64,000 bases of DNA from Candidatus Endomicrobiellum calonymphae (GTDB lineage Bacteria > Elusimicrobiota > Endomicrobiia > Endomicrobiales > Endomicrobiaceae), in NCBI GenBank assembly GCA_031269945.1, contig JAISYK010000007.1:62001-126000 (forward strand), written 5' to 3'. A program made the translations under genes and the position numbers. Under the pieces are notes generated by a model that was not told the DNA's origin, ran no database searches, and was given only the letters and a program-made list of their open reading frames with translations. Shown in pieces: positions 4,277 to 62,039 of the stretch (the first letter of the stretch is position 1; each line of letters opens with the position of its first letter).

Positions 4277-5630
4277 ATGTGTTTTGAAAATAAAAAAGTT
4301 TAGAGTCCTGAAGAAAAACAAATAATAATGATTAAAAGATTACATTTGAAAAAATTCAAGAAAATGGTGAATATATTGTTGTATCTCTTAGGGAACGTGT
4401 GATTCTAAAAGATCGTGTGATGATGGGTTTGGCTTTCACTATAAAAAATGATGGTTGAATGATTAATTTCCAGAATATAAAAAAATCTCTTAAAAGCAGA
4501 AGACCAAATGGAAGTTTGCTTTTAAGTTATAGAAGAGAAGCTGTCCATGAGAGAAGAAGATATGCGTCACATGATAGAATTTTATGTGATGACATATGTA
4601 TGTGATATGTCAAGGGTGTTTGCAGCCTCATATGAACTATATATGAACTGTATGTAAATTAATTTAATGCGATATAAATATAAAAAAAAGGGTCACAATA
4701 GAATAGAATTGGAGGAAAGTGATTAATAGCGTAAAGTTGCAAGGGTTGTAAAATATGTATTACAGAATGTCAATACGGTGTACTATTGTAAAGATGATTG
4801 TTCATTGAGGGAGATAAGATGTGTTTTGTTTGATTGATGTGTGATTAAGAAAAATTGAAATGATCGCAATGAAAATAGGTTATAATTGTTGTACATGCTG
4901 CGAAAAATGTATTGTGAGTTGTGACCTTTTGGTGTTATTCATAAAAAAGTCAAATAGTTGATGTTTAAAGAGGAGTATTATTTTCAGTAAAATAATTATT
5001 GCACTGGTTGCTTTTTTAATTTCTGGACAATTTTGGGAGGACATGTATGAAGCCCGTGTTGTTTGTTGGTAGGGGTTGTTTTTTTTTGATGCGTATTATA
5101 ACAATTCCGTGCTGTGTGGGTTATGTTCGGTTTATAAAAATATTTATCTGAAATAGAGAACTATTTGTATTATATACAAAAATGCCAATTTAATATATAT
5201 TTTATGCAAAAAAAATAAAATTTGAAGTCGTGTCACACAAAGAATGGGAAAGTGTATGGGAACAATGCTAGATTGACTGTGTTGTGAAATAAACTATAAA
5301 GAATTGAGAGTGTTGTTTACTCTAGAAAATATGGATTCAGCGAAGAAACAGTTAAGTAAGATAGTTAGAAATCAGAAATGTACATAAGGGAATTTGATTG
5401 AAGTGGTGAATCGTTAGGGGATATGTGTGATGTGGATGGTAATATGAGGATTTTTATCTTGAATGCTTTGCGAAAAGCTGTAAAAAACTTGTTAGAGTAA
5501 GGATGTATAATTGAAGATGGAGAACAATTTTGAAGTTTGTAGTATGTGGATAATTCAGCGATAGCTTAGTTCATTTTCGATTATTCATATTATGATGAAA
5601 TAAATAACATATCAAAATAGGCAGAGTTGT
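4277..5630 (+). other. Decayed intergenic region of about 1.35 kb
   Basis: No open reading frame of useful length is present on either strand. Short in-frame peptides broken by stops suggest former coding DNA in + orientation. One is near 4370-4460 (fragment ending KDRVMMGLAFTIKNDG before a stop). Another lies near 4490-4640 with a charged helix-like stretch that I could not assign. The only recognisable remnant is the ferredoxin-like part listed separately. From about 4960 to 5630 I see nothing identifiable. The position after etfBA and adhE makes a former redox enzyme plausible. Confidence 0.6.
4725..4950 (+). pseudogene. Remnant of an iron-sulfur (ferredoxin-domain) protein
   Basis: Two ferredoxin-type cysteine clusters can be read. 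At 4738-4782 the translation is CKGCKICITECQYG. At about 4887-4922 it is CCTCCEKCIVSC, and after a one-base frameshift it continues as PFGVIHKK, the normal end of a CxxCxxCxxxCP motif. Between them are several stops. The ancestor was probably a 2[4Fe-4S] ferredoxin or the ferredoxin domain of a larger complex, for example an RnfB-like protein or a hydrogenase subunit. The parent cannot be named from this fragment. Confidence 0.6.
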
Positions 5631-6611
5631 ATGATGAGGGTTTTAGTTACAGGTGCAAATGGTTTCGTCGGAAGTCACATTGTTGAAGCGTTGCTTGAAG
5701 AAAAACACCATGTTATATGTTCCTTAAGAGAGGTTTCGAGCTTAAAATGGATAAGAAATCTATCTCTAGATTATAGATATGGCGATTTAAGGGACAAAAA
5801 TTTTTTAAAAAAAATTGTTAAAGATGTAGACGTTATTATTCATTGTGCTGCTGTTGCCCGTGCGATGATTAAAGATGAGTATTTTAAAACAAATGTAGGA
5901 ATTACTAAAAACTTGTGTGAGGCAATTTTAAAAGTAAATTTCAAATTAAAAAAGTTTATATTTATTTCTTCGCAGGCTGCTATGGGGCCGTCGAAGTCAA
6001 TCGGCTTGAGGAGGCTTACAGATAAAGAAGAACCAGTTTCAGATTATGGGTTAAGTAAGTTTACAGCTGAAAAGGAGATTAAAAAAAAATTGCATGGGAA
6101 GGTATTGTATACTATACTGAGGCCTGCTGCTGTTTATGGACCAAGAGACAAAGATGTATTTGTGTTCTTTAAATTGGTGAATAAACACTTAAGACCTGTA
6201 ACGTTAGTGAAAAGGTTGTTGCAGCTTGTTTATGTAAAGGATGTGGCAAATTCTGTTGTAGCTTGCCTAAAAAATGAAAAAACTAATAATAACTGCTATT
6301 ATCTCGCAGATACTGTTGTATATACGTGGTCTGATGTGGGTAAGATTATATCTCTTTCTGCTGACGTAAAAACAGTTCCTATTCTTATCCCTGATTTTGT
6401 TTTTAAGTTTGTTGGGACGGCAGTGGAACTTTTATCTTATTTTACACAAAAACCTACATTATTAAATAGACAGAAAATCAATGAAATGCTTGAAGGGTAT
6501 TGGATAGCAGATACTGAATCTTCAAAAAGGGATTTGGGTGTTGCTTCTACTTCTCTTGAAGTTGGTTCTAAAATAACATATAATTGGTACTCGAGTAATG
6601 GATTTTTTTAA
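5631..6611 (+). CDS. cerR: NAD(P)-dependent extended SDR, probable 3-ketoceramide (or 3-ketosphinganine) reductase
   Basis: The 326-residue protein has an N-terminal Rossmann fold with TGANGFVG (residues 7-14) and the SDR catalytic set: a Ser in FISSQAAMGP near 113-114 and YGLSK at 139-143. Generic annotation would be NAD-dependent epimerase/dehydratase. It is called CerR here because the next two genes encode serine palmitoyltransferase and a bacterial ceramide synthase-type GNAT protein. In Caulobacter those two act with an extended SDR called CerR to make ceramide. There CerR reduces the 3-keto group after N-acylation. The start is one of two adjacent ATGs (5631 or 5634). The family is certain; the substrate is inferred from context. 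Confidence 0.72.
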   Translation: MMRVLVTGANGFVGSHIVEALLEEKHHVICSLREVSSLKWIRNLSLDYRYGDLRDKNFLKKIVKDVDVIIHCAAVARAMIKDEYFKTNVGITKNLCEAILKVNFKLKKFIFISSQAAMGPSKSIGLRRLTDKEEPVSDYGLSKFTAEKEIKKKLHGKVLYTILRPAAVYGPRDKDVFVFFKLVNKHLRPVTLVKRLLQLVYVKDVANSVVACLKNEKTNNNCYYLADTVVYTWSDVGKIISLSADVKTVPILIPDFVFKFVGTAVELLSYFTQKPTLLNRQKINEMLEGYWIADTESSKRDLGVASTSLEVGSKITYNWYSSNGFF

Positions 6612-6653
6612 GGATTTTATATTGTGTTGGAGTGAAAGAGGGAAAAACGAAAA

Positions 6654-7841
6654 ATGGGCTCTGATATTTTTGAGAAGTGTTTTAATTTTGATGTTGTAGG
6701 CGATCTTAAGATGAAAGGTTTTTATCCTTATTTTCACAAGATTGAATCTGTGCAGGGACCGGAAGTTATAGTTGATGGCGAAAAAAAAGTGGTCGTCTGT
6801 TCTAATAATTATCTGGGACTTGCTAATCATCCTAAAGTTGTTGAAGCTTCTATAGCTGCTATTAAGAAGTACGGTACTTCTTGCACGGGTTCTAGGTTTC
6901 TCAATGGCACTAATGATTTACATGAAAAAGTTGAAAAGAAATTTGCGAGATTTATAGGCAAAGAAGAAGCTATCCTTTTTACAACTGGACATCATTCAAA
7001 CTTAGGAGCTCTCTCAAGTTTAGTAGGAAAAAATGAGGTTTTGATTACGGATAAATTAGATCATGCTTCAATTATAGATGGTTGTCGTTTATCTTTTGGT
7101 GAAATGGTAAGATTTAGGCACAACGATATGTTAGATCTTGAAAGGCAGATTATTAGGTATAAAGGAAGGGGTATGTTAATTGTAGTTGATGGAATTTTTA
7201 GTATGGAAGGTGACATTGCAAATTTACCAGAAATTTTAAGACTTGCAAAAAAATATGCAGCAAGAGTATTTGTTGATGAAGCTCATTCTTTGGGCGTGCT
7301 GGGCGAGAATGGTAGAGGAACCGAGGAATACTTTAATATGGAAGATGATATTGATGTGTTGATGGCTACGGCTTCTAAATCTTTAGCTTCCATTGGTGGC
7401 TTTATTGCTAGCAAAGCTGAAGTTATTAACTACATTAGACATAACGCGAGAACAATGATTTTTACGGCAAGTCTTCCTCCGGCTTGCGTGGGAGCTATAG
7501 ATATGACTTTAGATCTACTTGCTACTGAACCTGAGCGAAGAGTAAGGCTTGTGGAAACTTCTGAGAAAATGAGATCAGCTTTTAAATCTATGGGATATGA
7601 TACAGGGCATTCGCAATCTCCTATTATACCTTTAGTTGTTGGAAGTGATTTAGTTGCTTTTAAAATGTGGAAAATGCTTTTTGACGAAGGAATTTTTGCT
7701 TCGCCTGTTGTTACCCCTGCAGTACAGGAAGGACGTTCTATAATTAGGACAAGTTATATGGCCACTCACTCTGATGATAATTTAAATTTTATTCTTGAAA
7801 GATTTGAAAAAGTTGGTAAGCAGCTTAATGTATTGACTTGA
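6654..7841 (+). CDS. spt: Serine palmitoyltransferase (alpha-oxoamine synthase)
   Basis: This 395-residue protein is a PLP fold-type I alpha-oxoamine synthase. Visible motifs are CSNNYLGLANHP, GSRFLNGT (about 79-86), DHASIIDGCRLSFG, VDGIFSMEGD, VDEAHSLGVLG (Asp208, His211) and the PLP lysine K242 in SKSLASIGGF. A conserved Arg lies in IRTSYMATH. The sequences RFRHNDM, SKSLASIGG and RTSYMATH resemble soluble bacterial serine palmitoyltransferases more than Kbl or BioF as I recall them. It would condense L-serine with an acyl thioester to give 3-ketosphinganine. It lies 42 bases after cerR and 55 bases before the ceramide synthase gene, so co-transcription is likely. The main alternative is glycine C-acetyltransferase, but no threonine dehydrogenase is nearby. 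Confidence 0.82.
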   Translation: MGSDIFEKCFNFDVVGDLKMKGFYPYFHKIESVQGPEVIVDGEKKVVVCSNNYLGLANHPKVVEASIAAIKKYGTSCTGSRFLNGTNDLHEKVEKKFARFIGKEEAILFTTGHHSNLGALSSLVGKNEVLITDKLDHASIIDGCRLSFGEMVRFRHNDMLDLERQIIRYKGRGMLIVVDGIFSMEGDIANLPEILRLAKKYAARVFVDEAHSLGVLGENGRGTEEYFNMEDDIDVLMATASKSLASIGGFIASKAEVINYIRHNARTMIFTASLPPACVGAIDMTLDLLATEPERRVRLVETSEKMRSAFKSMGYDTGHSQSPIIPLVVGSDLVAFKMWKMLFDEGIFASPVVTPAVQEGRSIIRTSYMATHSDDNLNFILERFEKVGKQLNVLT

Positions 7842-7873
7842 AGATGTGTATAGAAAACTATTGTTTAGTAAGA

Positions 7874-7882
7874 GGGGGGGGG
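7874..7882 (+). repeat. Run of nine G within the ribosome-binding site of the ceramide synthase gene
   Basis: Nine consecutive G bases are followed by AG, ending 12 bases before the ATG at 7897. In such AT-rich DNA this is exceptional, and it forms the Shine-Dalgarno element of the downstream gene. Homopolymer runs of this length can slip during replication and change spacing or strength of the ribosome-binding site. Whether this one varies is not visible from a single sequence. Confidence 0.7.
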
Positions 7883-7896
7883 AGTTAGTATATAAA

Positions 7897-9012
7897 ATGA
7901 AAGTGGTAAAAGTAAGTACTAAGAAACAGTTTAAAGAATTTGTTCGCCTACCTTGGAAAATTTATTCAAAAAATAGTTTATGGGTACCGCCGTTGATTTC
8001 GAGTCTTGAAGATGTTTTTTCGAAGGCGAGGAGTCCTTTTTGGTCGCATGCAAAAAACCGACTTTTTTTAGCTTATGATGACAGTGGTAATGTTATTGGG
8101 AGAATTGTAGGTATAGTAGACTATAATTATATAAAGTTTCAAAATGATGAGTGTGGTTTTTTCGGTTTTTTCGAATGTTTTAATAATCCTAAAGCGGCAG
8201 AAGCACTTTTTTTTAATGTAAGGGATTGGCTTAGAGAACAAAATGTGCATAAAATGATGGGACCTATGAATCCGTCGACAAATGATGAATGTGGGTTTTT
8301 GTTAGAAGGATTTGACGTACCGCCGAGTTTTATGATGCCTTATACTCCTCAATATTATTTGCAACTTGCCGAAAAATGTGGTCTTAGAAAAATAAAAGAA
8401 CTTTATGCTTACGATATGGATGTTGCAGAAGATTCTAGAGTTTACAGACTTGAAAGAGCGGTAACGATAGTGAAAAGGAAGCTCCCAACGTTAAAAGTAA
8501 AAACTATGCAAAGAAAAGGGTCGCTTGGAAAATATTTATATGATGTGGTATCAATATATAATCGTGCGTGGGAAAAAAATTGGGGTTTTGTCCCGTGGAG
8601 TAACGAAGAATTTATTGAGCTTGCCTCGAAATTAAAGGTGCTCATGGATCCAGAAATGGTAATAATGGCTACGGTGGCAAGTTCTCCTGTTGGAGTGCTT
8701 ATTTCTTTGCCTGATTATAATCAAGTTCTAAAGAAACTTAATGGCAAGCTTTTCCCTTTTGGAATCTTAAAATTTTTGTATTATAGAAAGAAGATAAATA
8801 GCTTGAGACTTATGGTCATGGGAGTTTTAAAAGAGTATAGGCACAAGGGTATCGAAGCCGTTATGTATGAAAAAGGTCTTAAAAATGCAATTCGGAATGG
8901 TTATAAACATTGTGAACTTTCGTGGGTGCTTGATGATAATGTAATGACACAACGTGCTATTGAGATGATGAATGGCAAAATATGTAAAAAATATGCTGTA
9001 TATGGCGATTGA
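7897..9012 (+). CDS. cerS: GNAT-fold N-acyltransferase, probable bacterial ceramide synthase (bCerS)
   Basis: The protein is 371 residues from the ATG at 7897, chosen because a G-rich ribosome-binding site lies just upstream. An in-frame GTG at 7846 would add 17 residues and leave only 4 bases after spt. Conserved blocks are SLWVPPLI, GFFGFFEC, GPMNPSTNDECG and MMPYTPQYY in the N-terminal half. A GNAT acyl-CoA-binding segment with RHKGIEAVMYEKGL lies near the C-terminus. This is the acyltransferase family shown in Caulobacter to N-acylate the sphingoid base, unrelated to eukaryotic ceramide synthases. The neighbouring spt and cerR support that role. No acyl carrier protein or glycosyl/phospho-head-group enzyme is seen nearby. 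Confidence 0.75.
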   Translation: MKVVKVSTKKQFKEFVRLPWKIYSKNSLWVPPLISSLEDVFSKARSPFWSHAKNRLFLAYDDSGNVIGRIVGIVDYNYIKFQNDECGFFGFFECFNNPKAAEALFFNVRDWLREQNVHKMMGPMNPSTNDECGFLLEGFDVPPSFMMPYTPQYYLQLAEKCGLRKIKELYAYDMDVAEDSRVYRLERAVTIVKRKLPTLKVKTMQRKGSLGKYLYDVVSIYNRAWEKNWGFVPWSNEEFIELASKLKVLMDPEMVIMATVASSPVGVLISLPDYNQVLKKLNGKLFPFGILKFLYYRKKINSLRLMVMGVLKEYRHKGIEAVMYEKGLKNAIRNGYKHCELSWVLDDNVMTQRAIEMMNGKICKKYAVYGD

Positions 9013-9410: not shown

Positions 9411-11937
9411 ATGTACTTAAAAAATAGGAATAAATGGCTTTAAGTCATTTGCTGAAAAGACGGTACTAAAATTTAAATTTGAAATTTCATGTACTATAGG
9501 CCATAATGGACGTGAAAAATTCAATATAGTTGACTCTATACGTTGATGTCTTGGAGGTCAAAAATTGAAATCAATGAAAAGTTCTAATATGCAACGCAAC
9601 GTGCGAGAGACTTTTAGATAAGGTCAGAGCAAGAAGTGTTTGAAAAAGAGTCTTCAGTGAGTCGTGATAAAAAATTGTTGACATGAAGTCAAGACTTAAA
9701 GAATTAAATATTGACTGTGGTTCTTTTTCAATTGAAATACAGCGTTTAGAATGTATTTATAGAAAAAAAAATGAGCAACGATGTAACTCTGTAAAATTAA
9801 AACCGTTTGAAATTGAATCAAAGAAAAATTCAATTCAATTACAAATTTTAGAGTTCAAATCTAAAAAAAAAGAACATATTAATTTAAAAGAAGAGTTTAC
9901 AAAAGAAAAAAAAAGCATTCAGATGCAAAAATATAGCTTCTTCGCGAAAGATGGTAACAAGATTTGAGAGTATTATTGATTCTATGAGTCAGGAAATTGC
10001 AAAGATTGAAGCAAAAGTTATCAATAATGACAAGTCACTACAATTACTTAAAATTAAACAAAAAGAAATAAATGAAGCTATTGTGAGAGGTAATGAGGAA
10101 GTGAAAATTTTTAATAGTGATTTTGCAAGAGGTCCCATAAGTAATTTAATTATTATTGATAAAAGTAAACATGAACTTATCGCGTCCACTTTAGGAGAAA
10201 AATTAAATTATCTTGTATGTGAAACCTTAGAAAAAGCTGAAGATGAAAAAAAATAATACGCTTCTCGTATGTTCAAATACTTTTATTTCAGTTGGTAGAG
10301 TTTATGGAAATGTTTTAGTTCATGGTGGAGGAAAAGTATTTTTTGAAAAATCGATGTTGATTGATGATTAAGTGAAAAAACTTAACGATGAATCTTTAGG
10401 AAGTATGAAAAAATATATTTCTGATGTACAGCTTAAGATACGGCAGTTAGATAGAGATCGAGAGAATCTTTTAATTAAAAAAGGAAGTATAAGTTTTGAT
10501 GTGATAAAAATTAAGACACAGATTGATGAAAAACAAGTTTATATCAAGTTTATATTAAAAAAAGAAATGAGGTGAAAAATGTTATTAATGAAATAGAAAA
10601 ACATAAAGAAGAAATGATTAGTAAAAATTTAGAATCTAAATCATTTAATGAGAAAGTGTCTATTTTTGAAACAAAAATTTTAGATTGGGGAACAAAATCA
10701 CTTAAATTTTTTGATGAGTTGAAAGCTATTTAAAGCAGTGTATTTTTAATAAGAAAAGAAGAAGGAGCTATTGCTTCTGTTACGATAGATGCGAGAAATA
10801 ATTGGGAGAAAGGGATTTTTGAACTTGAAAATAAAAATAAGGAGCGTCGATGCCTTACTAAAGATATCGCCGATTTCAAGAGTCAAACAAGAGTCAAATA
10901 AAAAATTCAGAGTTTAAAGTTGCATAGAATAGCAAAAAGATTTTGGAATTAGTTACGTCTCGGGGAAAGGAGTGTGAAAAAGTGCATCAATTGTTAAAAA
11001 AAACAATCTAAAAGAGAATTTAAAATGCAAATTTCATTGACGGATAAACAAATGTTTCAAACAGATCCGGACACAAAAATAGGCAAATTGCGTGATTTGC
11101 AAAATAAAATAGATAATATAAACGGTGAAATAAATACTTTGCAAATTGATTTAAAGGCCCTTGAATATCAGAAAAAACGATTCGATAAGAAAACTCTTAT
11201 GGGATATTTATGTGGAAAATTACGAAGAAATAAAAAATAATTTTGATAATAATGTTAAAGTAGATATAGAAGAAGTTAAAAAGATAAGGAATAAAATTGA
11301 ATCTTTATGATCCGTGAATTTTGTTGCAGCATAAGAAAAATATGAAGTTATAGAGCAAAAATATAGCTCTTTTTTGGGGCAACAATAGGATTTGTTAAGT
11401 GCCAAGAGTGATTTGCATGAAGTTATAAAAAAATTAATCGGTCCATTGATGAGAATTTTTGAAAAAACTTTTAATTTTGTAAATGAGAACTTTAAAAAGC
11501 TTTATGTTAAACTTTTTTGGTGGAGGAGAAGCGGATATAGTACTTAATAATTAAAATGATTTGTTTGAAAGTGGAATTGACATTCTTATTCAACTGCTAG
11601 AAAAAAAAATTACAAAATATCTCTTCTTTGTTCAGGCAGCGGAAAAAGCTTTGGCACCTATTGCTTTAATTTTTGCCTTTTTTTGCAAAACCTTCTCATT
11701 TTTATATTTTAGATGAAGTAAATGTTTCGTTAGATGATGCTAATGTTGGTAGGTACAAATGCTATAACCAAAGAATTTTCTAGTGAGATACAGTTTATAA
11801 CGCACAATAAACGTACGATGGGAATGTCAAATATTCTTTATGGTGTGACTATAGAAGAATGTGATATCCCAAAAATAATGTCTGTAAAAATCAATAAACA
11901 AGAATTACGTAATTGCGTAGTATGTGTTTGGTAATTT
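9411..11937 (+). pseudogene. smc: Degraded chromosome partition protein SMC
   Basis: Pieces of SMC appear in the right order but in different frames with many stops. At 9411 the start reads MYLKN, then after a frameshift INGFKSFAEKT and GHNGREKFNIVDSIR, the Walker A region (normally GPNGSGKSNIVDAIRW) with its P-loop destroyed. From 9683 to 11240 there are broken coiled-coil frames rich in K, E, I and L. A hinge-like piece lies near 10270-10340. The C-terminal head follows: a damaged signature near 11632-11660, LDEVNVSLDDANVGRY at about 11709-11757 and ITHNKRTMGMSNILYGVT near 11800-11850. The full extent of about 2.5 kb shows disruption by point changes and small indels rather than a large deletion. 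The short frames here are not independent genes. Confidence 0.9.
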
Positions 11938-43273: not shown

Positions 43274-43818
43274 TGACATCGTATATAAAAATGATGTTAG
43301 TATTTTTTTGTATGTTAAATTTTATTTTTGATTTTTATTGTTTCTTTTGAATTTTACTTCACCTTTTGGGCAGATTTAAAAGTAACTAAAATTATATCTG
43401 AAATGATAGCTAGATCATTGAGTTATTATTTTAAGTTACAGGTATAAGGATTTTAAATATATTTTTAAAGAATAATTGATATTGAACTGCGTATTTATAG
43501 GAATAAAGTAAGGCCTGTAGATAACAATATTATAGCCTAAAAAGGAGTTTAAATATATATCCTTCGCGGTTTCTATAGAAACTTTTATTTTTTGCATCTG
43601 TAATTTACATACAATAACTGTATTGAAATTTTGAGTGTCCTATTTTTATACATACGCAAGGTGTGTGTAGTATTTTGTAGGTTGGATGGCCATTAAATAA
43701 AGGAAGTGGGGCTTACGGATAAAAATTTTGGACTTATATACAAAAGTTTAAGAAAAACGGTAAAAAAAATGATTAATAATTACACTTCTATGATTAATTG
43801 ACTACGATCGACAGAAAC
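43274..43818 (+). other. Non-coding gap upstream of the GGDEF genes
   Basis: No gene is evident in about 540 bases. A weak hairpin ACATC/GATGT at 43276-43297 followed by T-rich DNA may terminate the lipoate gene. A 14-base palindrome GTTTCTATAGAAAC lies near 43570 and could be an operator. I see no c-di-GMP riboswitch consensus in front of the cyclase genes. Confidence 0.4.
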
Positions 43819-45192
43819 ATGAGTAAGAAAAATATTTTGAATATCTTTCGAATTGTGAGTTATTTCACTTTTGTAATTGTTTTTTTTATTGCATTAGCTG
43901 TAAATATATATCTGCATTCTCTTGTTAATCTCTTATTAGTTATAACTTTAGTAATTGTATTTTACTATTTTTCAGAAAATGCGTGTGGTGGTATTTTAAT
44001 AATTTTTACCATTGCTACGTTTGTTTTTGATATTATTTTTGTAAAACAAAAATACGAAATTTATGTTGTAATACTTGAATACATATCAATAGTGTGTTTG
44101 TGTCTAATTCTTGAGATGTATAAAATTAAATATATTTCAATAAAAAAGTGTTTTTCTGAAAAATACAATGTGATTAGTAAGGAAATTATATTGATAAATT
44201 ATGAAATATCGGAAAACAAAAAAATGATTGTAGATTTGACGCAGCGTATAAGAGATTTTAAGGAAATAGGTAAAATTTTTCAGTCACTTCAAGCTTCATC
44301 TGTCGAAAGGAAGATTATAGAGAAATCAGAAGATATTGCATATAAATTCATAGGGAAAGGTTCTTGGAAATTAAAAAAATATGAAGATAATGATGTTCTT
44401 GCTTCTTATATAAAAAGCACATCTTTGCCGTTAATGATTAGAGACGCAACTAATGATAACCGATTCTTGTTCTTAAGGCAACAAAATAGTAGTAATAAAA
44501 TGTCATTTATTGCTACTTCTATTAAATTTAATGAGGTTTTTTGGGGAATACTTCAGGGTAGTTCTAACATAAAAAATTTTTTTTCTGAACATGATTTGCG
44601 TCAATTATCTTTGTTATCGGGTATAGTAAGCACCGTTCTGGATAATTTTTATCTTTGTAAACAGCTTCAAACTCTTGCGATTACAGATGGATTAACTGGA
44701 CTTTATAATCAGACTTATTTTAAGGAAATACTTAGAGAAGAGATTGATCGCTCTAGGAGTAATAGATTTCCGTTGTCTTTAGGAATATTGGATGTGGATT
44801 TTTTCAAAAACATTAATGATAGATATGGTCATCAATCAGGCGATTCAATTTTACGCCAGGTTTCTTCAATCTTACGCTCAAGATTTAGGAGAACTGACTT
44901 TGTTGCTAGATATGGCGGCGAGGAATTTGCTTTTGTGATGTTACGTACTAACTCAAGAGAAGCAGTGAAAATTTTGGAGCACATACGGTTAAAAATAGAA
45001 AAACAGAGCTTTTTTCTGCCTATAGAGAGCTTATATCCTATTCAAATAAAAATAACCGTAAGTATAGGTTTCGCCTCATTAACTGGCAATTCTCATATTT
45101 CAGAAGAAAAATTTATAAAAAATGTTGATTCGGCTTTATATAAGGCAAAGCAATTGGGAAGAAATAGAGTAGAATGTTTTTCGTATGAATAG
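43819..45192 (+). CDS. Membrane-bound diguanylate cyclase with intact GGEEF and I-site
   Basis: From ATG 43819 the protein is 457 residues (an in-frame TTG at 43798 adds seven). The first about 100 residues form several membrane helices. A middle region of about 200 residues with weak GAF-like character follows, then a GGDEF domain. The active site reads RYGGEEF (GGEEF at 366-370). FFKNINDRYGHQSGD supplies the substrate-binding Asn and Asp, which points to c-di-GMP rather than cGAMP. The RRTD motif five residues upstream is a proper RxxD inhibitory site. No EAL, HD-GYP or PilZ protein is in the window. The next gene encodes a second cyclase overlapping by 8 bases. Confidence 0.88.
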   Translation: MSKKNILNIFRIVSYFTFVIVFFIALAVNIYLHSLVNLLLVITLVIVFYYFSENACGGILIIFTIATFVFDIIFVKQKYEIYVVILEYISIVCLCLILEMYKIKYISIKKCFSEKYNVISKEIILINYEISENKKMIVDLTQRIRDFKEIGKIFQSLQASSVERKIIEKSEDIAYKFIGKGSWKLKKYEDNDVLASYIKSTSLPLMIRDATNDNRFLFLRQQNSSNKMSFIATSIKFNEVFWGILQGSSNIKNFFSEHDLRQLSLLSGIVSTVLDNFYLCKQLQTLAITDGLTGLYNQTYFKEILREEIDRSRSNRFPLSLGILDVDFFKNINDRYGHQSGDSILRQVSSILRSRFRRTDFVARYGGEEFAFVMLRTNSREAVKILEHIRLKIEKQSFFLPIESLYPIQIKITVSIGFASLTGNSHISEEKFIKNVDSALYKAKQLGRNRVECFSYE

Positions 45193-46525
45193 AAAAATAT
45201 TAATTTTAATATTTATTTTTTCTGCGATTGTAAGTATATTATTTGTGATATCTAAACCAAATGGCATTATCAATATTACTGTTTTGTCATTTTTCATTGT
45301 CTTAATTGGATTATATTGTTCGTATTGGTTTAAGAAAGTAATTTTGATTTGTGTGATTATATCGTGTATTATAGTTATTTTTTCAGCGAAAAAATATTCC
45401 TTTTCTGTATTGAATATGTGTTTAGTTTTTACAGTAATTGTTCCGCTACCTTATTATTTTTATTTGAAATTAAAAAATCTAAAAAAAGAGCTTTTCAAGC
45501 AAAACTTATTTCTTAAAACTAAACTAAAAAAGATTATTTTAGAGTATAAAGAATGTTTAGCTGAAAGGCAAAGATGTGAAAGTAATGCGAAAAAAATAAG
45601 TCAACTTTATGTTATAAGAGAAAAATTATTTAAATGTGTTTCAAAAGATGAATATTCACGAGTTGTTTTGAACTTTATTGAAAAAAAGTTGAGAACTGTA
45701 GGCTGTAGTATTTTCGAGAGAGTTAAATCTAGCTGGGGAATGCTTGTATCTTCAGGTGTTTTACAGAATAAAAATGTGAACCCGTTAAAATTTTTGAGAG
45801 ATTCTAAAAAGTGCAGTATTGTAGATAGTGAAGAGTTTGGAAATTATAATTTCAAGGTGGTTTATTGGCCTTTAAAAGTAGGAGATGAGCTTATAGGTTG
45901 TATCTTAATAGTAACAAGGATAGAGTATGCAAATGTATGTGTTGAAGAAAGTTCAATTTTTTCTCCTCAAATTTCTTTGGGGTTAGAAAGAGTAAATTTT
46001 TTTAGTGAAATTTCTAAAAGAGCAAGGAGTGATGGGCTTACAGGGTTATATCTAAAGCGATATTTTTTGCAACGATTAGATTTAGAAATGGAAAGAAAAA
46101 AACGATACAATGCCGAATTTTATATTTTAATGTTAGATTTGGATTATTTTAAAAATGTAAATGACAAATATGGTCACTTAGTTGGAGATAAAGTGCTTGT
46201 AAATGTCGCAAAACTTATTCTGTCTGCTGTAAAACCTGGAGATTTAGTGTGTAGATATGGTGGGGAAGAGTTCATAATATTGACATATACGATTGGTGAG
46301 GAAGGAGTAAAAATTGTGGCAAATAAAATAAAAGATTTTGTGATAAATATGATATTTCAAGAAAATGGTGACAAATTTAATGTAACAATAAGCATTGGTA
46401 TAAGTTGTAATTCAAAAGATATTAACGACTCGAAGTTTATAATTAGTACTGCAGATAAAGCTTTGTATAAAGCAAAAAATAATGGGAGGAATCAAGTTGT
46501 TTTATACGATGACAGTATAAAATAA
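45185..46525 (+). CDS. Second membrane-bound diguanylate cyclase, I-site degenerate
   Basis: This is a 446-residue protein with the same plan as its neighbour: membrane helices in the first about 95 residues, a coiled-coil, a sensory middle part and a C-terminal GGDEF domain. The active site is RYGGEEF (GGEEF at 359-363) with DYFKNVNDKYGHLVGD before it, so synthesis of c-di-GMP is expected. The I-site position reads KPGD, without the Arg, so feedback inhibition may be weak. Overlap of 8 bases with the first cyclase gene suggests coupled expression and a tandem duplication. The sensory regions differ strongly. Confidence 0.87.
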   Translation: MNRKILILIFIFSAIVSILFVISKPNGIINITVLSFFIVLIGLYCSYWFKKVILICVIISCIIVIFSAKKYSFSVLNMCLVFTVIVPLPYYFYLKLKNLKKELFKQNLFLKTKLKKIILEYKECLAERQRCESNAKKISQLYVIREKLFKCVSKDEYSRVVLNFIEKKLRTVGCSIFERVKSSWGMLVSSGVLQNKNVNPLKFLRDSKKCSIVDSEEFGNYNFKVVYWPLKVGDELIGCILIVTRIEYANVCVEESSIFSPQISLGLERVNFFSEISKRARSDGLTGLYLKRYFLQRLDLEMERKKRYNAEFYILMLDLDYFKNVNDKYGHLVGDKVLVNVAKLILSAVKPGDLVCRYGGEEFIILTYTIGEEGVKIVANKIKDFVINMIFQENGDKFNVTISIGISCNSKDINDSKFIISTADKALYKAKNNGRNQVVLYDDSIK

Positions 46526-56519: not shown

Positions 56520-57727
56520 GTATAGTATAACTAAATGCTAAGCAAGAATGAATGTATGTAAAATGTCAATAAAAATCGTTGTTTTTGATGTAAGAAATGG
56601 AATGTTATGCTTAGGTTTGATTTGTCAAAATTTGTTAGATTATATTTAAGACGTGTCTCAAAAAAAGTGACTTTAATTGGTTCACATTAATACTTACTTA
56701 GATATTATGTTTTATATAGAAAAGAGCATATCTCATCTTTGAGTTTTTATAATGTGCTGGCGAAATGGTGTTTATAGTGGTTTTTCTTTTGAACGAAGTA
56801 ACATTTTTGAGTTTATAAATAAAATATATGTAAGAGACAATAGAAACTATTGTCTCTCTTGCGCAAAATTATGAGTTTGCTGTACTTTTTAAAATACGAG
56901 TGGGTTTGTTTTAGTTGTTTAAAGGAGAAATATTCTAGAATATTTTCAGTGTTTGATGAATTATTTTTCTTATATGAATTGCGTATGATTAAAAATTTGA
57001 ATCTGAAGTTTTCAGACAGGTGAGGTATGGTACGTCGTTATTCTGTTTTAGCTTCAAAAATATTTTGTACTGATGGGCCTGGAGGAAAATGTATATATTG
57101 AAAAAGGCAATAGAATAAGTGCTAATTTAGTTATAAGAGCTTTTAACCCTTGTTAAAGAACTAGAAAATTAAAATAGGGGAATTTAATAAATTTATAAAA
57201 TTTTCAGAAATGAATTACGCTAAAAGTAAAGGCAAGTTGCGGTTATTTAATGAGTAAAATGAGTAGAGTAAAATCAAAATTTCATTATCTAGTACGTAGG
57301 GAACGATTAAAGATAGGCGAGGGAGTTTATTTCTTTAGGGGGCTTAATAACATTTCTAATTATGAAGTATTAGGATTGATATTATAACGTATGTTTGGCC
57401 TAGAAAAGATGCAAAGATTTTGGCGAATGAGATTACATGTAAACTTATTAGTTTGAAACGGGTTTTAGGTGTAAATATAGGAGATTTAAAATAAATGAAA
57501 AATATTTATAATTATTCCGTGTGTTCCATGCGATATTTTAAGCGATGAAAAAGTGGAGAAATTTTATGCAACAATGTCAAACTCATATGGGTGTGGAGTT
57601 TGTTGATTGAATAGAAATCGAGAGTGAGGATGTCCGAAGTGACTTTTAGACTTTTTTTATAAGATTGGGTAAAAAATTTTTAAAATTAGTTTTTTTGTAT
57701 CGGGGTGTGGAGTATGGGAAACTAATT
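56520..57727 (+). other. Decayed region between phoU and cobA
   Basis: No intact gene is found in about 1.2 kb. A perfect 11-bp hairpin AGAGACAATAG/CTATTGTCTCT at 56833-56857 has only a short T run and may end the pst transcript. Beyond it, broken + strand frames persist. Around 57030-57120 fragments read TDGPGGK and EKGNRISANLVIRAFN in neighbouring frames. Near 57295-57380 one reads RERLKIGEGVYFFRGLNN. Near 57380-57470 another reads IITYVWPRKDAKILANEI. These look like one former gene I cannot name. No cobalamin riboswitch (GCCACTG box) is seen in front of cobA. Confidence 0.55.
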
Positions 57728-58246
57728 ATGTTGATGCTAAATATAGGCGATGGTAAGGGGAAGACGACTGCTTCTATAGGTCAAATAATTCGCTCTTTAG
57801 GGCATGGGTTTAAAGTTTGCCTTATACAATTGTTTAAAGACAACGATTTTTATGGTGAGCAGAATATCTTATTAAAATTAGAAAATTTAGATTTTTTTTC
57901 TTTTATAAAAAAACATCCTTGTTACTTAGATAACATAAGTTCTGAGAGACTTAAAAGTCTATGTGATCCGGCTGTTGATAAATTAAGAGAACTTAACAGT
58001 ATCAATTCTAAAAGGTATGATTTGGTTGTTTTAGATGAGTTTAATATTGCATTAAGAGATAGGCTTATAGATGAAAATGAATTTGTTGCTCTTGTGGAAA
58101 AATTATCACGAATGTCAAATGTAGTTGTGACCGGTAGAGGATATCCAAAAGCATTGATTGATATGGCAGATTTGGTGACTGAAATGAAGGAGATTAAACA
58201 TTATTATAGTAATGGAGTGCAAGCACAGAAAGGTATAGAATACTAA
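57728..58246 (+). CDS. cobA: Cob(I)yrinic acid a,c-diamide adenosyltransferase (CobA/BtuR type)
   Basis: From ATG 57728 the protein is 172 residues, placing the P-loop GDGKGKTTASIGQIIRSLGHG right at the N-terminus as in CobA. The in-frame TTG at 57665 would add an unrelated hydrophobic tail. LVVLDEFNIAL is the Walker B-like strand and VVTGRGYPKALIDMADLVTEM closes the family pattern. It transfers the adenosyl group from ATP to cob(I)alamin, producing coenzyme B12. Its stop is 12 bases before btuF. Together with the importer it would feed NrdJ. Confidence 0.93.
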   Translation: MLMLNIGDGKGKTTASIGQIIRSLGHGFKVCLIQLFKDNDFYGEQNILLKLENLDFFSFIKKHPCYLDNISSERLKSLCDPAVDKLRELNSINSKRYDLVVLDEFNIALRDRLIDENEFVALVEKLSRMSNVVVTGRGYPKALIDMADLVTEMKEIKHYYSNGVQAQKGIEY

Positions 58247-58258
58247 TAATTATTTGAA

Positions 58259-59122
58259 ATGAATTTTTTTAAAAAAAATATTGTTTATGTCTTTGCGTTA
58301 TTGTTTTTATTGACAGATGCGAATATTGTTTGGAGTAGAGAGTATAAGCGTATAGTTTCTTTAGCACCATCGGTTACATTAAGTTTATATGAATTGGGCA
58401 TTGAACGAGCTGTGATAGGGATAACGGTTTATTGTCCTAAAGGAATAGTTAGAAAAGAAATAGTAGGTACACTTCTAGAGCCTAATACAGAAAAAATAAT
58501 ACTTCTCAATCCTGATTTGATTATTTTAACAAAAGAAGGAAATACTAAAGCGACAGCTGAAAAATTTAAACATCTTGGTTTTGAAGTATATGTCATGGAT
58601 GTAGCTGAGAGCTTTAATGAAATGTGTGCGAACTATTTCAACTTAGCTAAAAAACTTAATAAAGAAAAAAATGGAGAGAAAGTAATAAATACTGCAAAAT
58701 ATTTATTGAAGAAAATACATGATAAGTTGAAAAGTTTTGGTGAATTAAAAGTATTTTGGGAGATTGGTGCAAGACCGCTTTTTACTTTAGGCAAACGAAG
58801 TTTTATAAATGACTATAACTACTATACAAGAATGATAAATGTATATGATAACTTTAATTCACGATATTTTATTGTTGATATTGAAGATGTCATTAAACGA
58901 AATCCTGACGTTATATTGCTGGCCAACATGGATGATATCAATAATAGTGAAGAGATAATAAGATGGAATAGGTATAAAATGATAAAAGCTGTAAAGAATA
59001 ATAAAGTTTTTATGATTAGTGTCGGGAATAGTTATATATTTAGTCCAACACCTCTAGAGTTTGTAAAAGGTGCGGCGATGCTTGTAAAAATTGTTCATGG
59101 AAATATTTTTAATGACAAATAA
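58259..59122 (+). CDS. btuF: Cobalamin ABC transporter substrate-binding protein BtuF
   Basis: The 287-residue protein has an N-terminal signal peptide (hydrophobic about 8-20, possible cleavage after VWS). RIVSLAPSVTLSLYELGI starts the class III periplasmic binding fold shared by BtuF and iron-siderophore binders. The long central helix is visible around residues 130-160. It delivers corrinoid to the BtuC channel. The B12 substrate is inferred from the adjacent adenosyltransferase; a siderophore or heme substrate is possible but less likely. The stop overlaps btuC by 11 bases. Confidence 0.82.
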   Translation: MNFFKKNIVYVFALLFLLTDANIVWSREYKRIVSLAPSVTLSLYELGIERAVIGITVYCPKGIVRKEIVGTLLEPNTEKIILLNPDLIILTKEGNTKATAEKFKHLGFEVYVMDVAESFNEMCANYFNLAKKLNKEKNGEKVINTAKYLLKKIHDKLKSFGELKVFWEIGARPLFTLGKRSFINDYNYYTRMINVYDNFNSRYFIVDIEDVIKRNPDVILLANMDDINNSEEIIRWNRYKMIKAVKNNKVFMISVGNSYIFSPTPLEFVKGAAMLVKIVHGNIFNDK

Positions 59123-60125
59123 AAAAAAAATATTTATTTATCTATTGATGTTGATTTTGCTCGTTATAGTAATGTTTCTTTTTTCTTTAATGTATGGTTC
59201 AAGCAAAATTTCATTTGTCGAAATACTAAAAATATTTTTTGGGAGCGTAGATAATAATAATGAGGATATAGTAGTAATAATAAAACAAATACGCTTGCCT
59301 AGAACTATCATGGCTTGTATTGTAGGATCTGGTCTAGCTGTAAGTGGTTGTGTGTTTCAAGCAATATTAAAAAATCCACTAGCCGATCCTTTTACTTTAG
59401 GTATATCAGGCGGTGCTGCTTTAGGAGTTGCCATAGCTTTTGTGTTCGGACTTTCATCTATAACAAATTTTTTTATTCCTTTTTGTGCTTTTGTAGGTAT
59501 GAATATTTCGGTGATAATTGTGTATTTAGTAAGTGTAAGAAAAAAGTTTGTCTCAAAAACAATGATTTTATCTGGTGTCGTTGTGAGTTATGTTTTTTCA
59601 TCTGCTGTAATGCTTCTATTTACGTTATCTCCTTCAAATAATGTACAGACTGCTTTTGTATGGCTTATGGGAGATTTTTCTAATTTTGATGAAAGGATGC
59701 TTCCATTTATTACGATAGTTGTATCTGTAGGTATAATAATTTTGTCTTTGTTGGGTAATGTAATCAATACTGTGTGTTTGAATGATGAGAAATCGAAAAC
59801 TTTTGGTATAAATATCGAAAAAAATATAACTTTTTTATTTTTTACAGCTTCAATTATTACAGCAGCAACCGTATCAGTTTGTGGTATCATAGGGTTTGTT
59901 GGATTGATAATACCGCATGCTATGCGAAAAATTGTTGGGACAAATAATATGTTTCTTATTCCAGCTTCGGCTTTTTTCGGTGCATTTTTTTTACCTCTTT
60001 GTGATACTTTAAGTAGAGTATTGTTTTCGCCAGTTTTAATACCTATAGGAGTTATAACAAATATAATAGGTGGGTTTTTCTTTGTTTGTTTATTGTTGAA
60101 ATCTGAAGGGATACATATAAAATGA
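59112..60125 (+). CDS. btuC: Cobalamin ABC transporter permease BtuC (FecCD family)
   Basis: From ATG 59112 the protein is 337 residues; an ATG at 59091 would add seven and lies within btuF. About ten hydrophobic segments are present. RLPRTIMACIVGSGLAVSG and LKNPLADPFTLGISGGAALG are the classical FecCD motifs, and GFVGLIIPHAMRKIVG is the loop that contacts the ATPase. It forms the inner-membrane channel as a dimer. The stop overlaps btuD by 4 bases. Confidence 0.9.
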   Translation: MTNKKKIFIYLLMLILLVIVMFLFSLMYGSSKISFVEILKIFFGSVDNNNEDIVVIIKQIRLPRTIMACIVGSGLAVSGCVFQAILKNPLADPFTLGISGGAALGVAIAFVFGLSSITNFFIPFCAFVGMNISVIIVYLVSVRKKFVSKTMILSGVVVSYVFSSAVMLLFTLSPSNNVQTAFVWLMGDFSNFDERMLPFITIVVSVGIIILSLLGNVINTVCLNDEKSKTFGINIEKNITFLFFTASIITAATVSVCGIIGFVGLIIPHAMRKIVGTNNMFLIPASAFFGAFFLPLCDTLSRVLFSPVLIPIGVITNIIGGFFFVCLLLKSEGIHIK

Positions 60126-60904
60126 TACATATAAATAATGTTTCTGTAAATTACTTAGGTAAGAAAATTTTAAAAAATATTTCATGTGATATAAATAAAA
60201 AAGATTTTCTCGGCGTAATTGGGAAAAGTGGTGTAGGTAAAAGCACTTTGTTGAAAGTTTTGTGCAAATTAATTAAACCGAACTCTGGAAGTATATTTAT
60301 AGATTGCAAGAATATAAATTGTTTTTCAAGAACAAATTTTGCAAAAATAGTTTCTTTTTTACCTCAATATGTAGATACTTCATTATCTTTCAATGTATTT
60401 GAGTTTATTATGTTTGGTAGATATCCTTATATGAACGCACTTAAAATTCCTTCGGGTGAAGATTGTGTTATAGTGAAAAAAATTATGGATTTTTTGCGAA
60501 TAACAAATTTATCTCAGAGAAAAATCAATGAACTTTCAGGCGGTGAAAAACAAAAAATTTTAATAGCCCAGGTTCTGGCTCAAGAAACTGAGGTTATTGT
60601 TTTCGATGAACCTAATTCGCATTTAGATATAGGTAGTCAAAATAATATTTTAGAGATATTAAGGGACTTGAATGAAAATTATAATAAAACAATAATTTTG
60701 ACTTTACATGATTTAAATATTGCAAGCGAGTTTTGTAATAGGTTAGTTCTACTAGAAAATGGTTCTATATGTAGCCAGGGGCATCCTAAAGAAGTTTTAA
60801 ATTATGTAAATATAGAGAGAGTTTATAATACAACAGTTATTATAAAGACAAATCCGATTTCTAATAAGCCCTATGTTATACCAGTAAGTAAGCAGCAGAA
60901 ATAA
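60122..60904 (+). CDS. btuD: Cobalamin ABC transporter ATPase BtuD
   Basis: The 260-residue ABC ATPase has Walker A GKSGVGKST, Q-loop FLPQYVD and signature LSGGEKQK. Walker B is VIVFDEPNSHLD, and the switch His lies in LTLHDLN. All canonical residues are present, in contrast to the PstB pair. It overlaps btuC by 4 bases. It ends 13 bases before the convergent PAP2 gene, with no obvious terminator between them. FhuC-type iron-siderophore ATPases are very similar, so the substrate rests on the cobA neighbour. Confidence 0.88.
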   Translation: MIHINNVSVNYLGKKILKNISCDINKKDFLGVIGKSGVGKSTLLKVLCKLIKPNSGSIFIDCKNINCFSRTNFAKIVSFLPQYVDTSLSFNVFEFIMFGRYPYMNALKIPSGEDCVIVKKIMDFLRITNLSQRKINELSGGEKQKILIAQVLAQETEVIVFDEPNSHLDIGSQNNILEILRDLNENYNKTIILTLHDLNIASEFCNRLVLLENGSICSQGHPKEVLNYVNIERVYNTTVIIKTNPISNKPYVIPVSKQQK

Positions 60905-60917
60905 AAGGAATAAAAAC

Positions 60918-62039
60918 TTATTTATTAATTGAATTTAAATATTTCAAAAATGGATGTTTGGAATTATTTTTTGAGAGGTTGATAATTATCAATGTAGTAA
61001 GTATTCCTATCACTGCTCCACACAAAACGTCGGACGGGAAATGACTCCCTGTATATATTCGTTCAAAAGCTACTCCTAAAGATAAAATTATGTACCAGTA
61101 CCAATATTTTTTCACCACCATAAACATAAATGTACATGTGCTAAATGCAACCTGTGCATGTCCTGATGGGAAAGAAAAAGAATGTAGTGTCTCAAACATT
61201 ATATTGACATTTTTATCTCCTAAAATTATTAAGGGGCGTGGACTTTTAAAATAGTATTTTAAAGTATACGTTAAAATAGTTCCAACCGCTAAAGAACTTG
61301 CAAGAAGAGCAAGTATGGGCCACAAATAATCCTTTTTGTTATCCCAAAGTATTCCAATGGATATTATTAATATGAGGATCACGCTTAAGTTAATTTTTTT
61401 AGAGTCGCAGTAAGATATCAACGATATATAAAAATCCAAATATTTACATTTTATATCTGAGTTTATATACTTGAAGGCTTTGTAATTTATTTTCATAAGT
61501 TTTTGATGCACGCTGGTTATATTAGATGGTTTACATGAAGCAAGTATAAAGTTTTTAGCTTTTTTATTATCTCTGTTTGAGTTCATGTAAGGCATGAGAA
61601 TTTTATTTTCATAGTTTCCCTTATTGTCTATATGTATGTGTTTTATTTCTTCGTTTTGCCCCTGAGATATTAATTTTTCTGTTTGAGCTATACATAAAAG
61701 AGTAGTAATAATTATAAGTAAGTAGCCACCACATATTACATAAGAACAAACTCTAAACCATTTTGTTGAGTGCCAGAATTTTAATATTAAGTGCGATATT
61801 ATTATGTAAATCGATAAAATCGAGTAACTAATTGCAGAACGATGTGGATAGAAAGTTGGTTCATTAAAAATTGTTAATATGCTAAGAAAAATAATGGCAA
61901 ATACCGAAAAGCATTTAATAAGTAAAATGGCTTTACTCTTTTGTGAATATGATGCTTTTACGCATAAAAGCACCGAAATGATGAAAACTATGAACAAAGT
62001 TGTTGACAATATATATGTTGTTGCCTGCATGTAAACCAT
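60918..62039 (-). CDS. PAP2-superfamily membrane phosphatase with large N-terminal membrane part
   Basis: The 373-residue protein starts at ATG 62039 on the minus strand. The C-terminal 150 residues are a PAP2 domain with all three motifs: KYYFKSPRP, FPSGHAQ and ERIYTGSHFPSD. Several hydrophobic segments precede it, with a hydrophilic loop of about 75 residues in the middle. PAP2 proteins dephosphorylate undecaprenyl diphosphate, lipid A or other lipid phosphates at the outer face of the inner membrane. The N-terminal half matches nothing I recognise. Related-looking membrane codons upstream of the start are interrupted by stops, so the N-terminus may be shortened. Substrate unknown. Confidence 0.82.
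   Translation of the reverse strand: MVYMQATTYILSTTLFIVFIISVLLCVKASYSQKSKAILLIKCFSVFAIIFLSILTIFNEPTFYPHRSAISYSILSIYIIISHLILKFWHSTKWFRVCSYVICGGYLLIIITTLLCIAQTEKLISQGQNEEIKHIHIDNKGNYENKILMPYMNSNRDNKKAKNFILASCKPSNITSVHQKLMKINYKAFKYINSDIKCKYLDFYISLISYCDSKKINLSVILILIISIGILWDNKKDYLWPILALLASSLAVGTILTYTLKYYFKSPRPLIILGDKNVNIMFETLHSFSFPSGHAQVAFSTCTFMFMVVKKYWYWYIILSLGVAFERIYTGSHFPSDVLCGAVIGILTTLIIINLSKNNSKHPFLKYLNSINK

Follow-up and report, generated by a model that had tools for sequence, protein, structure and literature searches.

A predicted ceramide-backbone operon amid decayed DNA in a Candidatus Endomicrobiellum genome with eroded lipid A genes

Why should three neighbouring genes for a sphingolipid stand intact where the DNA on both sides has fallen into decay? 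The question is raised by a stretch of 64,000 nucleotides from Candidatus Endomicrobiellum calonymphae (contig C4 positions 62001-126000, hereafter the window), which belongs to a genome of 0.81 Mb (G000) in an assembly that is 83% complete. Endomicrobiellum, in the Elusimicrobiota, comprises endosymbionts of flagellates that inhabit termite guts (PMC11257099). An earlier note on this DNA had taken its owner for a probable endosymbiont, a status that is supported by this genus membership and not by direct evidence. In a comparative study of Endomicrobiellum, lipopolysaccharide genes were missing in many members and sphingolipids went unmentioned in the main text (PMC11257099). A literature search found no description of sphingolipid synthesis in Elusimicrobia.

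The earlier note had described three adjacent intact genes for an extended SDR, an enzyme like serine palmitoyltransferase (SPT) and a GNAT-type acyltransferase of the ceramide synthase family, had seen no acyl carrier protein or head-group gene in the window, and had argued from the retention of the genes that the lipid matters, perhaps for the envelope or for interaction with a host. The three genes were placed as follows.

5631..6611, + strand: extended SDR (NDUFA9/CerR-like), predicted ketosphinganine / keto-ceramide reductase (Pfam, motifs, homology)
6654..7841, + strand: predicted SPT, a pyridoxal phosphate (PLP) alpha-oxoamine synthase (NCBIfam, PDB matches, catalytic residues)
7897..9012, + strand: predicted tandem-GNAT N-acyltransferase, bCerS/Aca/YghO family (homology, AlphaFold2 fold, SPT adjacency)

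Together they very probably form one operon for a (keto-)dihydroceramide backbone, since homology, active-site residues and gene neighbourhood all match known ceramide enzymes. Such a pathway has been described before; what is new is where it occurs.

Integrity and predicted function of the three genes

All three open reading frames (ORFs) were uninterrupted in the window. Stop triplets made up 8.3% of the triplets in the decayed flanking DNA, a frequency at which stop-free runs of 326-395 codons have a chance probability of about 1e-12 to 1e-15, so these ORFs are not chance open frames. The GC content by codon position was gene-like in the three ceramide genes and flat in the flanks, and purifying selection acts on each of them (dN/dS 0.10-0.21 overall, 0.13-0.21 against the nearest genomes). 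The picture of adjacent intact genes amid decayed DNA was thus borne out by the ORFs, the stop statistics, codon-position GC and dN/dS, and the purifying selection backs the claim that the lipid matters. The GNAT gene most likely starts at the ATG at 7897, preferred over a possible upstream GTG at 7846, because several relatives have stop codons upstream of that ATG.

The best NCBIfam model for the SPT was NF047600 (SerpalmtaseCFB) with 502 bits, the next family reaching 386 bits. Among solved structures, the Sphingobacterium SPT (8guh/3a2b) matched best (E=9e-118, 46% identity, 397 bits; next match 291 bits). We compared the PLP- and serine-binding residues of the solved SPT (PMC10196870) with the predicted enzyme. 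N52, G80, S81, H138, S185, D210, A212, H213, T241, S243 and K244 (Sphingobacterium numbering) were all conserved; over the PLP lysine, the stacking His and the substrate contacts, 11 of 12 positions were identical, the exception being Met271, a main-chain contact that is Ile here and in other SPTs. Ser243, beside the PLP lysine, was Ser in all aligned SPTs and Gly in E. coli Kbl and BioF. The profile and structure searches ranked SPT ahead of Kbl and BioF, as the earlier note had expected; its refuting case, a best match to Kbl or BioF with SPT-specific residues missing, did not occur.

These residues bear also on which amino acid the enzyme would use. It is unlikely that the PLP enzyme takes another amino acid and yields a related lipid, such as a 1-deoxy-ceramide or a cysteate-derived sulfonolipid. 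The alpha-oxoamine synthase fold is shared, the cysteate acyltransferase structure 28eh is among the PDB matches and (1-deoxy)ceramide backbones have been discussed for Spt-like producers (PMC11334938); however, 28eh reached 246 bits against 397 for the Sphingobacterium SPT, and the substrate and cofactor contacts were all kept apart from Met271. An enzyme of Kbl or BioF type, in an operon unrelated to sphingolipids, can hardly be the right reading: although identity to E. coli Kbl (37%) is nearly that to the SPT of the E. coli cluster (39%), family and structure scores favour SPT by more than 100 bits, the tree groups it with Sphingobacterium and other GNAT-linked SPTs apart from Kbl and BioF (several deep nodes being weak), separate BioF-like genes exist in the genus at about 33% identity to it, and its partner genes are the ceramide pair.

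The GNAT enzyme showed full-length homology to YghO of the spt cluster (30% identity across 375 positions) and matched the Sphingomonas spt-cluster gene by tblastn at E=7e-48. Homologues were found in the spt clusters of Sphingomonas, E. coli, Pseudomonas, Roseomonas and Diaphorobacter; in E. coli, Pseudomonas and Sphingomonas, YghO/bCerS-type genes adjoin spt, acp and epimerase genes. In the literature, yghO and Caulobacter CC_1154 are listed together as the acyltransferase required for dihydroceramide (PMC9386255). Full-length homology to such genes beside spt supports the proposed place in the ceramide synthase family. The GNAT Pfam match was sub-threshold only and a sequence search of PDB found no solved-structure relative, while an AlphaFold2 model (pLDDT 93.6) had tandem-GNAT enzymes as its best PDB fold matches.

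The SDR matched the Pfam families Epimerase and 3Beta_HSD. Its TGxxGxxG motif, S113 and Y139xxxK143 were kept across 22 homologues, including the spt-cluster genes of Sphingomonas, E. coli and Roseomonas, and it was 28% identical to the epimerase of the E. coli plasmid cluster (pairwise E=1e-31). As is characteristic of CerR, it is an extended SDR with NAD(P) and YxxxK motifs and linkage to spt. The hopanoid epimerase HpnA gave the best NCBIfam score, yet with 110 bits against a cut-off of 368, and was rejected.

Gene neighbourhood was examined at 46 related loci from many phyla, each with at least 2.8 kb on either side of the GNAT gene. SPT lay near it in 33 of them, and SPT and SDR together in 31. 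All three genes were adjacent in Rubrobacter and Streptomyces and nearly so in Aureispira.

In the predicted pathway, SPT would convert serine and a long-chain acyl thioester to 3-ketosphinganine, the GNAT enzyme would place a second acyl chain on the amine, and the SDR would reduce the keto group, before or after acylation, to give dihydroceramide. The acyl groups would come from the ordinary fatty-acid pathway, because no dedicated acyl carrier protein was found in the genome (83% complete assembly); presumably either housekeeping acyl-ACP or an acyl-CoA serves as donor. The single acyl carrier protein (PP-binding) found in the genome lies at C4:57883-58086 beside fatty-acid genes, 4 kb upstream of the window, which agrees with the earlier failure to see one inside it. 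The product is most likely destined for the outer membrane. Substrates, step order, product, location and function of the lipid are what we infer from the genes.

Several points weigh against the ceramide operon. The 502 bits of the SPT fall below the curated equivalog cut-off of NF047600 (640 bits); no other family's cut-off was reached either, so an SPT-like enzyme is claimed from residues and context, not from that model. The Caulobacter CerR is periplasmic (PMC11087976), and inspection of the SDR by eye found no apparent signal sequence. A ceramide-kinase-type head-group gene was sought through the DAGK_cat domain, without a match in G000 and with none over the cut-off in the genus. Nor did any lipid gene adjoin the operon in relatives; the conserved neighbours there (hydrogenase, smc and a small unassigned protein) were considered as head-group enzymes and none fits.

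Inheritance of the gene set

Of 42 genomes examined in the genus, 28 carried the complete set, almost invariably arranged SDR-SPT-GNAT; in G015, G033 and G185 contig breaks fell inside or between the genes. The operon is also present in G075, the likely genome of Endomicrobium proavitum, a relative that is free-living and in culture (PMC4505116). Across the phylum, a GNAT relative was present in 49 of 60 sampled relatives. An SPT match at E<=1e-60 was obtained in 226 of 248 phylum genomes, a count that overstates SPT, as 39 of the 226 reach only 1e-64 to 1e-93, a BioF-like level, which leaves about 187.

Because the SDR-SPT-GNAT order recurs in the genus and SPT-like genes span most of the phylum, the ceramide set appears ancestral, and its distribution fits best with vertical descent and several losses. 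It is an old inheritance of the phylum and was not acquired for symbiosis. The argument from retention holds for G000, where the set is intact and constrained, and does not extend to the genus as a whole, several members of which have lost the set.

Lipid A decay and loss of SPT

The close relatives of G000 retain lipid A genes, and one of them, G136, was used as the syntenic reference for the lipid A locus. Its order is bamA, lpxD, lpxC-fabZ, lpxA, lpxI, two sugar genes, lpxB, recG, msbA and, further on, kdsD (lpx genes, msbA and kdsD by family models; recG and the sugar genes named by eye). In G000 the corresponding locus, upstream of the window at C4:27054-44476 (loci L093 and L094), is decayed. 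There bamA is open, lpxD is a 22-residue scrap, and the LpxC half of the LpxC-FabZ fusion is gone, the FabZ half surviving as an ORF of its own (C4:27287-27820). No match to lpxA or lpxI was found at the syntenic locus, and the two sugar genes, lpxB, recG, msbA and kdsD are broken. Whole-genome searches of the 83% complete assembly found no LpxC, LpxB or WaaA, and the LptF/LptG pair is intact. G007 and G069 likewise have a dead lpxC with an open FabZ half and LptF/LptG present, and searches found no intact lpxB or waaA in either. G007 has all three ceramide genes and G069 only SDR and GNAT.

Caulobacter can live without lipid A only if it has a sphingolipid, and Sphingomonas produces sphingolipids and lacks lipid A (PMC10964400, PMC10331486). 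Since lipid A synthesis is lost in G000 while BamA and LptF/LptG are kept, a replacement may be proposed; that the ceramide genes outlast lipid A suggests one like that in Sphingomonas. By this analogy the sphingolipid might take over part of the role of lipid A, which we regard as possible at somewhat less than even chances. Of the two roles that the earlier note had considered, the decay of lipid A genes in G000 favours the envelope over host signalling.

Nearly an even chance can be given to the alternative that the operon makes dihydroceramide and is retained for reasons unrelated to lipid A, as the source of an ordinary ancestral membrane lipid that the phylum is losing slowly. Most lipid-A-positive relatives carry the operon too, and G143, G010 and G032 lost the operon yet kept lipid A. 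In the genus, lipid A genes and the operon were not statistically associated; the single genome with LptF/LptG that lacks both is 34% complete, which tells against unrelated retention. So does the finding that the genomes with decayed lipid A genes (G000, G007 and G069) keep SDR and GNAT intact in 3/3 and SPT in 2/3.

The proposed replacement of lipid A meets its own difficulties in the same data. Across the genus, no support emerged for a strict trade-off between lipid A and the operon (Fisher p=0.09, uncorrected for phylogeny), the tendency being toward joint loss, a direction driven by very small or incomplete genomes without everything. Furthermore, there may conceivably be a second lipid A locus in the part of the genome that the 83% complete assembly misses.

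The sister genomes G025 and G069 bear on how the remaining enzymes might work. In Ca. Endomicrobiellum agilis TA26 (G025) an eroded SPT remnant of 713 bases lies between intact SDR and GNAT genes (L068 5876-6588), and in G069 the remnant measures 243 bases, again between intact SDR and GNAT (L067 5895-6137). G069 and G143 have the end of the SPT remnant in common; in G143, SDR and GNAT are broken too. G025 and G069 were sisters among the genomes compared (support 100), with dN/dS between them of 0.15 for SDR and 0.17 for GNAT at dS of about 0.75, the same level of constraint as where SPT is present. Provided that the loss of SPT dates back to their common ancestor, SDR and GNAT have long been kept without it, which suggests that long-chain base comes from elsewhere, perhaps from the protist. 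The sequences are hinting at salvage of a host long-chain base by SDR and GNAT in this lineage; SPT losses in G025 and G069 may also have been independent and recent. A wider proposal, tentative and on balance doubtful, is that ceramide would supply the outer leaflet via LptF/LptG in lipid-A-less Endomicrobiellum, with TA26 (a Trichonympha symbiont) and its sister salvaging a protist base through SDR and GNAT after the loss of SPT.

What makes the locus more interesting is its coincidence with decayed lipid A genes, together with the sisters that have lost SPT. Should the predicted functions hold, this is a diderm symbiont outside Proteobacteria that gave up lipid A and kept ceramide synthesis, and what permits lipid A loss can then be asked in close relatives with and without lipid A. 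The SPT-less sisters would be a clean case of a bacterium dependent on a host sphingolipid precursor. For ceramide, better known from animals and plants, this would be a testable case of one membrane lipid replacing another.

Also upstream of the window, C4:46727-48904 encodes an intact 726-aa protein, 57% identical to its G136 homologue and possibly an outer-membrane protein. It looked LptD-type; it had no Pfam match and no such claim is made.

Neighbouring genes and comparison with known systems

The decayed flanks described earlier could be named.

4390..5429, + strand: monomeric [FeFe] hydrogenase pseudogene (tblastn with the intact 483-aa TA26 protein, E=2e-16, in several pieces and frames; TIGR04105)
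9421..11904, + strand: pseudogene of smc, chromosome segregation (tblastn with the intact SMC of relatives, E=1e-75, pieces in several frames; TIGR02168)

Both genes, dead here, are intact in TA26. The smc gene is also intact in G069, and G136 has no smc ORF at the matching place (L071). Chromosome segregation without SMC is unusual.

Elsewhere in the window, 57665-60904 holds genes for a corrinoid adenosyltransferase, a periplasmic binding protein, a permease-like protein and an ABC ATPase, all apparently intact, which form a B12-type uptake set (partly named by eye). At 60918-62039 on the - strand lies a PAP2-superfamily phosphatase with a membrane-like N-terminal part, a possible lipid phosphatase. 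Two adjacent sensor-like proteins at 43798-46525, the first GGDEF by Pfam and the second alike by eye, have been kept despite genome reduction.

By homology, the three core enzymes are the same as those of the Caulobacter / Rhodobacterial pathway (spt, acpR, aasR, cerR/epi, bcerS/aca). In contrast to that pathway, no acyl carrier protein stands beside the genes here and only one was found in the genome, the SPT is of the Bacteroidota (CFB) and not the Rhodobacterial type, and the gene order is compact with no head-group genes nearby. Closer in arrangement are Rubrobacter, Streptomyces, Aureispira and many candidate phyla, in which the same genes are clustered with no dedicated acyl carrier protein alongside, although the order or orientation of the SDR differs there and the hosts are not known as intracellular symbionts. 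Sphingomonas, with glycosphingolipids replacing lipopolysaccharide, likewise combines dead or missing lipid A genes with intact sphingolipid genes. However, it belongs to an unrelated phylum, and lipid A loss is recent within Endomicrobiellum, whose lipid-A-less members have close relatives that still carry the lipid A genes.

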